Below, one piece after another: positions 4,729-6,268 of a stretch of DNA of 41,098 nucleotides (position 1 is the stretch's first letter; each line of letters begins with the position of its first letter). Under the pieces are notes generated by a model. That model worked only from the letters and a program-made list of their open reading frames with translations. It did not search any database and was not told the DNA's origin. The position numbers were made by a program, and so were the translations under genes. Origin of the DNA: an uncultured SAR86 cluster bacterium (GTDB lineage: Bacteria > Pseudomonadota > Gammaproteobacteria > Magnimaribacterales > Magnimaribacteraceae); NCBI GenBank assembly GCA_902514295.1, contig CABXQE010000010.1, forward strand, positions 1-41,098. The letters run 5' to 3'.

Positions 4729-4917
4729 ATTTAAATTCCTTTTACTTAAGTTTACCTATAGATAGATTATTTATGAAGATTTTAAATGGTGGAAGATGAA
4801 ACTTTAGCTGCGCCCAACCAAAATTATTTATAAGCTCCATCTTCCATGGAGGTGCAGGATACAGCTTAAATCTAGCTTGTGCAGCTTAAAATGGGTGTTA
4901 GCCGCATCCTGCAATAA

Positions 4918-4972
4918 ACTGAGAAAGTTTACCTTTGAGAGGTTTTCTGGGGAGAATTACACGTCTCTCAGT
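4918..4972. repeat. three-helix element, copy 1
   Basis: The outer 7-bp stem is actgaga/tctcagt. Inside it, acctttgagaggt (4931-4943) folds as ACCT/AGGT around a 5-base loop. It is followed by ttctggggagaa (4945-4956), which folds as TTCT/AGAA around GGGG. The inner part matches copy 2 at 4976-5048 in order and sequence, including the identical 13-mer ttctggggagaat. Confidence 0.55.
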
Positions 4973-4975
4973 CTA

Positions 4976-5048
4976 AATCAATATTAAGAGAAGTAACCTT
5001 TTAGGGGTCTTATTCTGGGGAGAATCTGGAAATCCCTTAATATTGATT
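4976..5048. repeat. three-helix element, copy 2
   Basis: The outer stem is a perfect 13-bp inverted repeat. The inner hairpin acctttaggggt-type (4996-5008, read ACCTTTTAGGGGT) is the same length as in copy 1. It keeps pairing through a T-A to T-G change at its fourth pair. The second hairpin, attctggggagaat (5012-5025), is one pair longer than in copy 1. The outer stems of the two copies share no sequence, so the design rather than the sequence is conserved there. Confidence 0.55.
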
Positions 5049-5171
5049 ACAATCATATACAACTATAAATATTTTGTATAGTACTAAAGTAAAAAAAATT
5101 AATCCTTTATTTAGCCATTAGAACTCTTAAATAACTAAATCGACGAACGAGAAATTTATTTCAATGAAAAG

Positions 5172-5198
5172 AAAAAAGGGGCTTAAGCCCCTTTTTTT
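5172..5198 (-). terminator. rho-independent terminator (bidirectional form)
   Basis: GGGGC-ttaa-GCCCC is flanked by A6 on the left and T7 on the right. Read on the minus strand this is a strong GC stem followed by a T run, 14 bases after the stop codon of the secreted-protein gene at 5212. The symmetry means it could also act on plus-strand transcripts leaving the stem-loop array. Confidence 0.8.
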
Positions 5199-5211: not shown

Positions 5212-5928
5212 TTAATTTGCAGAAAATGTTTGTTCACATTCTTCAAAGTTATCAGAGAGAATTGTTCCCCCTACGGCTTGAAGAGATAACCACTCATCTG
5301 CCCATGAAGCTTCTCCATCAAAATACTCATCAAAGAGCTTTCCAAAAGAAGACGCGTCTGGTGTAGCACTTCTTACCATTAAGGTCTGGGCTTCATGTGT
5401 TCCTCCACCGATTGGAATAAAGACTCCATTAAAGAAATCTGAATGACCTGCCTCAATGATTGCCTTTTCTAGAGCAGTCATAGCGTCCACAAAGTCTTGA
5501 AGCTTATCCGTGGGTACGTTGACCCTTTGAACTCTCTCATAGCCTGGATCTAGTCTCCAAGGTTTTGCAGCTTTCCATGTAACTCCATATTTAGGCTCTC
5601 TCAGCTGAGCAAAACTTGCAGGAGCTTGTTGTGGATCATATTTTAATGAACCTACTAAGGCTGCTTCAACACTCGGAAAAGCACTCCACACCATCATTTG
5701 TCCAGCATATTCATTTCCTGATCTTGTGATACAAACACCCGCATCAGTAGCGCCTGTAGCAGAAAAGGCAGAAGTGTTAGATTTAAGAGTGTCTACATAC
5801 TTATCAATATCGGGTGCAGCCAACATTAAAGTTGTAAAGGCCCCATCAGTCGTTCCTCTATTTAAGGGTTCATCGGAATAAATTCCAAATGAGAGGAATA
5901 AACCTATAGTTATTATTAATTTATTCAT
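5212..5928 (-). CDS. secreted protein of unknown function with two probable dimeric alpha/beta barrel-like repeats
   Basis: A 238-residue protein with an N-terminal signal peptide (MNKLIITIGLFLSFGIYS). I chose the ATG at 5928 because AAAGGA lies eight bases upstream and the hydrophobic signal then starts at residue 1. An upstream ATG at 5970 would bury it. The mature part has two similar halves, each beginning with a strand and a helix (TTLMLAAPDIDKYVDTL, and RVQRVNVPTDKLQDFVDAM), and ending in QTLMV or QMMVWS strands. This pattern recalls antibiotic-biosynthesis-monooxygenase-type barrels. Two cysteines (VCITR and the C-terminal EECEQTF) could form a disulfide after export. I do not recognise the family by name. 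It lies just after another small barrel-like gene and ends in the terminator at 5172. Confidence 0.7.
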   Translation of the reverse strand: MNKLIITIGLFLSFGIYSDEPLNRGTTDGAFTTLMLAAPDIDKYVDTLKSNTSAFSATGATDAGVCITRSGNEYAGQMMVWSAFPSVEAALVGSLKYDPQQAPASFAQLREPKYGVTWKAAKPWRLDPGYERVQRVNVPTDKLQDFVDAMTALEKAIIEAGHSDFFNGVFIPIGGGTHEAQTLMVRSATPDASSFGKLFDEYFDGEASWADEWLSLQAVGGTILSDNFEECEQTFSAN

Positions 5929-5950
5929 ATTTTTTTCCTTTGTTAAAAAA

Positions 5951-6268
5951 TCATCTATTAATTTCGTCAAAATAAACAGTGGTGCCTAAATTTTTAAGAT
6001 CAGGGTGATGCTCTCCTATAAATTTAATAGCTCCTTCCCACCATTCAGATCCGAACATAGCATCAGAAAACTTTCCATAAGCCTCTTGAGAATCAAATTC
6101 TATTGAATAATAGACTTGTTCCATATTCCCACCAGTGCTGGCTCTCCATAATCTTGGATTCTTCGCACCCATAGATTCATGTATAGGTCCTGATTGCCTT
6201 GAACCCTCAATCAAAATCTCCAATGCCTTGGGAGTTCCTTCCCAGGTAGTTACAGCTTGTATTGTCAT
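5951..6268 (-). CDS. small cytosolic protein, probable dimeric alpha/beta barrel
   Basis: A 105-residue protein without signal peptide or membrane segment. Its layout is strand (MTIQAVTTWEG), helix (TPKALEILIEGSR), strand (VYYSIEFDSQEAYGKFSDAM), helix and strand (TTVYFDEINR). This is the ferredoxin-like beta-alpha-beta-beta-alpha-beta plan of dimeric alpha/beta barrel proteins. The start is backed by a textbook TAGGAGGA six bases before the ATG. The secreted protein follows after 22 bases and may share its ancestry and transcript. The function is unknown, and there are no obvious catalytic residues or cofactor motifs. Confidence 0.7.
   Translation of the reverse strand: MTIQAVTTWEGTPKALEILIEGSRQSGPIHESMGAKNPRLWRASTGGNMEQVYYSIEFDSQEAYGKFSDAMFGSEWWEGAIKFIGEHHPDLKNLGTTVYFDEINR

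Follow-up and report, generated by a model that had tools for sequence, protein, structure and literature searches.

A conserved minus-strand RNA family of SAR86 bacteria, most likely a regulator acting through C-rich loops

Background

SAR86 bacteria are common in surface seawater and difficult to grow in culture. A literature search on regulatory RNAs of SAR86 returned no relevant paper. Within the window, which is the whole stretch of 41,098 nucleotides of SAR86 contig analyzed here, a first-pass annotation had marked positions 4835-5048 as a row of four stem-loops forming a structured RNA of no recognized class, and had named the strand as its main uncertainty. The locus raises the questions of whether such an RNA exists, which strand encodes it, how widely it is kept among relatives and what it might do.

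Strand and architecture of the element

All four stem-loops are present, and so are the two three-helix copies that had been described, at about 4918-4973 and 4976-5048, with a shared inner design (ACCT..RGGT hairpins and an identical 13-mer) inside unrelated outer stems. Folding of 4835-5048 gave a z-score of -6.0 on the minus strand, with none of 200 shuffles as good, and of -1.5 on the plus strand, and the mean over 20 homologues was -5.5 for minus and -2.2 for plus. The minus-strand fold score and the conservation in relatives place the two copies of a small structured RNA beyond chance. The aligned homologues held 142 G·U and 9 A·C cells on the minus-strand structure, and since a plus-strand RNA would give these counts in reverse, the structure is that of a minus-strand RNA. 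Together with a promoter-like block that faces the same way, the counts and fold scores settle the strand as minus. The loops therefore read CCCC and CUCC, and not GGGG and GGAG as they had been drawn on the plus strand.

The element is a structured RNA of about 260 bases, running from about 5048 to 4787 in the order unit 1, unit 2, hairpin 3, hairpin 4. The extent first given to it does contain structure, but the element continues to 4787, and the stem-loop at 4835-4851 is only a part of hairpin 4. The ends were inferred, the 5' end lying near 5046-5048 and the 3' end being placed at 4787, where the last hairpin closes. The features of the region are as follows.

4787..5048, minus strand: whole structured RNA; kept in relatives, matched by covariance models R1 and R2, folds on the minus strand
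4976..5048, minus strand: unit 1; outer stem AAUCAAUAUUAAG/CUUAAUAUUGAUU around hairpins UUCU-CCCC-AGAA and ACC..GGU
5013..5025, minus strand: C-rich loop A, copy 1 (AUUCUCCCCAGAA); exact repeat
4918..4973, minus strand: unit 2; outer stem ACUGAGA/UCUCAGU around hairpins UUCU-CCCC-AGAA and ACCU-CUC..-AGGU
4945..4957, minus strand: C-rich loop A, copy 2 (AUUCUCCCCAGAA); exact repeat
4853..4913, minus strand: hairpin 3, GCAGGAUGC..GUAUCCUGC, with CACCCA conserved inside; covariation
4787..4849, minus strand: hairpin 4, 15-bp stem with the near-invariant segment GGUUGGGCGCAGC; matched by R3, covariation within and between families
4807..4819, minus strand: GGUUGGGCGCAGC segment of hairpin 4; invariant or nearly so in family alignments
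5052..5080, minus strand: promoter-like block, TATACA (-35) and TATGAT (-10), spacing 17; consensus scan
5172..5197, minus strand: intrinsic terminator of the upstream gene 5212-5970; outside the RNA, parting that operon from it

Both units fold and are matched by R1 (unit 1 at 4980-5050, unit 2 at 4915-4981), with compensatory changes in the outer stem of unit 1. The assembly, 1.23 Mb in all, has just two copies of the 13-mer ttctggggagaat, at 4945-4957 and 5013-5025. By consensus scan alone the hexamer pair at 5080-5052 did not rise above shuffles; in the alignment, the block ACTATACA..TATATAAT is near-invariant in about 24 homologues, while the sequence flanking it is not. A U-rich tail follows hairpin 4 in about half of the homologues, the window copy being one without it, and because the U-tract is so often missing hairpin 4 does not look like a standard intrinsic terminator. 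The minus-strand proteins encoded upstream at 5212-5970 and 5951-6268 had no Pfam match at an E value of 0.001. We also considered an encoded peptide. The small minus-strand ORFs reach 28-32 amino acids, and since homologues differ near the conserved segment of hairpin 4 by frame-shifting insertions or deletions of 1-2 bases, coding does not explain the conservation.

Covariation and conserved segments

Compensatory pair changes, which the first-pass annotation had proposed to look for in relatives, were found there. In the alignment of the units 86.7% of cells were paired, with changes on both sides at 11 pairs, and covariation was 0.267 compared with 0.150 for shuffled alignments and at most 0.095 when slid. 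Hairpins 3 and 4 together were 99.1% paired with double changes at 12 pairs (covariation 0.304 vs 0.176 shuffled and at most 0.068 slid); hairpin 3 by itself has 12 pairs, 98.6% of cells paired and double changes at 5 pairs, and hairpin 4 aligned over both families that carry the RNA gave 0.406 vs 0.237, and at most 0.139 slid.

Many compensatory changes have rewritten the outer stems. The UUCUCCCC and CUCUCC of the inner loops and the GUUGGGCG of hairpin 4 have hardly changed. Members of the second SAR86 family have a wholly different outer stem and carry the two C-rich motifs in a larger loop, and those of its genus g13 lack the small stems around the motifs. The RNA shares with anti-Shine-Dalgarno C-rich-loop sRNAs the retention of C-rich motifs in loops while the stems vary. 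Fixed C-rich loops on rewritten stems, and the loss of the small stems in g13, point to the C-rich segments as putative single-stranded contact sites.

Rfam searches of the window and of six homologous loci returned only tRNAs at the gathering score, and at a loose threshold only sub-gathering matches, nearly all of them around the terminator at 5172-5197. The description of the element as an unknown structured RNA thus holds: it belongs to a real conserved structured RNA family that no Rfam entry matches.

Distribution among SAR86 and other bacteria

Matches to the intergenic region in genomes of the same family span about 180-370 bases and are 73-87% identical. Of the 35 genomes of the window's family, 26 gave a covariance-model match to the RNA, mostly at a single locus; several of the genomes without a match are incomplete. 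A second SAR86 family contributed a further 27 genomes with the RNA; four of these 27 matches are weak (E value 0.003-0.007), yet they share locus and architecture with the others. Members combine one or two enclosed C-rich units with the long 3' hairpin and, in most cases, a hairpin bearing another C-rich patch. The number of units falls from two to one between genera, several genera having one, with only one in genus g2.

No homologue was detected by the covariance models in two other SAR86 families. A search with R3 at laxer filters, made without a positive control, also gave none in those families or in the matchless genomes of the positive families. A sample of Gammaproteobacteria yielded nothing convincing, a single weak match (L140, E value 0.004) being taken as chance. 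Public contigs carrying the hairpin-4 motif have titles naming SAR86, apart from one unrelated, chance-like match in Paenarthrobacter.

Genomic context

The window copy is followed by a thioesterase gene in the same direction with no intervening terminator, and a thioesterase gene lies downstream in most genomes of this family. Elsewhere in the family the downstream gene encodes a 2-hydroxyacid dehydrogenase, a Wzz-like protein or a metallo-beta-lactamase-fold protein, and in genus g2 a convergent TPP enzyme gene faces the RNA. Because the downstream genes differ or converge, the RNA in the window's family looks like an independent gene and not like the leader of one gene, and the role first suggested for it, as leader of the thioesterase gene, finds no support as a general one.

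The second family has a different arrangement. At all loci examined there the RNA is flanked by a saccharopine-dehydrogenase-like gene on one side and a DNA photolyase gene on the other. It stops 4-6 bases short of the photolyase start codon (L141-L151), and no obvious Shine-Dalgarno sequence precedes that codon; in three genera with this arrangement there is no terminator in between either. A conserved link to one downstream gene is thus found at every second-family locus examined, and no link to one gene or pathway is found in the window's family. In the second family the RNA is probably also a photolyase leader, or only that.

Two further observations concern the surrounding DNA. At four loci (L015, L016, L017 and L022) differing genes, including a Wzz-like polysaccharide gene, lie directly downstream of the RNA, whose 3' end looks as if it marked the edge of variable DNA. 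Genome G011 (L152:1837-3099) has a phage-type integrase gene near a tRNA-like sequence and the RNA.

A putative regulator acting through C-rich loops

We give about an even chance to the proposal that the RNA is an Hfq-independent, trans-acting regulator that blocks ribosome-binding sites through its C-rich loops. The single-stranded loops UUCUCCCC and CUCUCC would pair with the purine-rich ribosome-binding sites GGGGAGAA and GGAGAG of several mRNAs, and pairing there would block translation. Two units would supply two redundant sets of seeds which, being pre-formed in loops, could pair without Hfq or ProQ, while hairpin 4, displaying GUUGGGCG, might protect the 3' end or bind a partner. Neither Hfq nor ProQ was found in the 35 genomes of the window's family, with positive controls detected in known genomes; CsrA was found in 29 of the 35.

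Suitable sites exist, given that GGAG and GGAGA are enriched before starts: in 400 kb sampled from one relative, GGAG occurred upstream of 14.7% of starts compared with 5.6% at mid-gene positions, and GGAGA at 7.9% compared with 2.3%. Complements of the hairpin 3 and hairpin 4 segments showed no enrichment at starts in the same sample. The motif GGGGAGAA preceded ATG 234 times and a reversed-pattern control 112 times, a hand-summed excess of about twofold that is expected from Shine-Dalgarno usage alone. Among the sites inspected, GGGGAGAA, the complement of the RNA loop, lies at the Shine-Dalgarno position of TonB-dependent receptor genes in three genera (L176, L177, L179, L207, L208, L215, L216 and L217; five confirmed by Pfam and three identified by a TonB-box-like start only). 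Others precede an enoyl-CoA hydratase gene in two genera and a serine hydrolase gene. Some candidate sites were chosen because their spacers recurred, and this choice, along with general Shine-Dalgarno usage, makes the candidate targets a lead and not a test; as leads from sequence, the TonB-dependent receptors and enoyl-CoA hydratase are candidate targets.

Two described sRNAs offer the nearest comparisons. The alpha-r14/NfeR1 family of Sinorhizobium and relatives carries the same C-rich anti-Shine-Dalgarno motif unpaired in several hairpins with very different stems, and silences mRNAs at the ribosome-binding site through redundant copies without Hfq (PMC10746234). These traits resemble those of the SAR86 RNA. 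We considered membership in that family and rejected it: each alpha-r14/NfeR1 hairpin has the ultraconserved motif CCUCCUCCC, whereas our alignments read UUCUCCCC and CUCUCC in the loops, and the SAR86 loops lie two together inside an enclosing stem, with a long 3' hairpin carrying GUUGGGCG after it. The alpha-r14/NfeR1 RNAs are moreover alphaproteobacterial, and the SAR86 RNA has no Rfam match. The second, sX13 of Xanthomonas, is gammaproteobacterial and Hfq-independent, and its three hairpins with CCCC or CCCCC loops act on G-rich motifs near start codons (PMC3771888). Compared by description and not by sequence, it differs in being 115 nt long, with no enclosed double-hairpin units or GUUGGGCG hairpin described. 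By analogy, the SAR86 RNA resembles both but is probably unrelated to either.

Alternative interpretations

Evidence against trans action comes from genome G007, which has receptor sites of the GGGGAGAA type and no detected RNA, from the frequent lack of a U-tract after hairpin 4, and from the second family, in which the distance of 4-6 bases to the photolyase start and the missing terminator suggest a leader. On that last reading the RNA would form the 5' part of an mRNA and act in cis: hairpin 4, lying over the start region, would serve as a switch for the translation or processing of the gene that follows, photolyase in one family and mostly thioesterase in the other. The lack of an obvious Shine-Dalgarno sequence at photolyase starts in three genera favors it, as does the codirectional thioesterase gene of the window, but the downstream gene varies within the window's family, including the convergent case of g2, and photolyase and thioesterase share no evident pathway; we regard a cis-acting role in general as unlikely, though not negligibly so. 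Rather unlikely, too, is a protein-binding or scaffold RNA (a sponge or a housekeeping ribonucleoprotein) whose invariant loops and GUUGGGCG are bound by a protein or form CCC-GGG kissing contacts in place of pairing with mRNAs. Near-invariance of the loops, including their short inner stems, and the presence of both CCCA and UGGG in most members would suit it. No partner protein is known, however, the loss of the small stems in one second-family genus fits single-stranded seeds, and member L026 has UUAGGCG for UUGGGCG, which breaks the kissing pairing. The signs of an independent gene in the window's family (a conserved promoter-like block and variable flanks) and the near-fusion to photolyase in the second could also be combined in a double role specific to SAR86: one lineage would use the RNA as a free transcript that regulates nutrient receptors through its C-rich loops, another as the leader of its photolyase mRNA, and both in bacteria without detected Hfq or ProQ. 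We hold this to be improbable.

The first-pass annotation had also offered a free plus-strand RNA with GGA motifs suited to CsrA. Such a sponge, with GGGG and UGGAG loops, would share with CsrB/RsmZ its repeated hairpins, short fixed loop motif and free-standing form, and CsrA is present in most genomes of the family; its plus-strand loops would hold GGA. The G·U and A·C counts (142 vs 9), the mean fold scores (-2.2 for plus vs -5.5 for minus) and the direction of the promoter-like block all indicate the minus strand, where the loops carry CUCC and CCCC, the complement of GGA, and this makes a CsrB-like sponge very unlikely. The size and free-standing position of the RNA would suit a divergent form of a known class (6S, tmRNA, glycine or another riboswitch), which seems to us hardly probable given the Rfam results at the gathering score. 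A divergent 6S RNA in particular was rejected: no 6S RNA (RF00013) was found in the window, and 32 of the 35 family genomes have 6S at other loci. Tandem riboswitches such as those for glycine likewise have two similar modules in a row; the SAR86 RNA differs in that it has no Rfam match and that the gene after it is not conserved across the window's family, and one unit is enough in several genera.

Implications

Judged from its sequence and that of its relatives, the SAR86 RNA is most likely a C-rich-loop regulator; it is encoded on the minus strand, having first been drawn on the plus strand. The fall from two units to one between genera makes the logic of the repeat testable by comparison. 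If the proposal is true, SAR86 would have a regulatory RNA family of its own in bacteria in which the usual chaperones Hfq and ProQ were not found, and this RNA would show how RNA regulation works without them.
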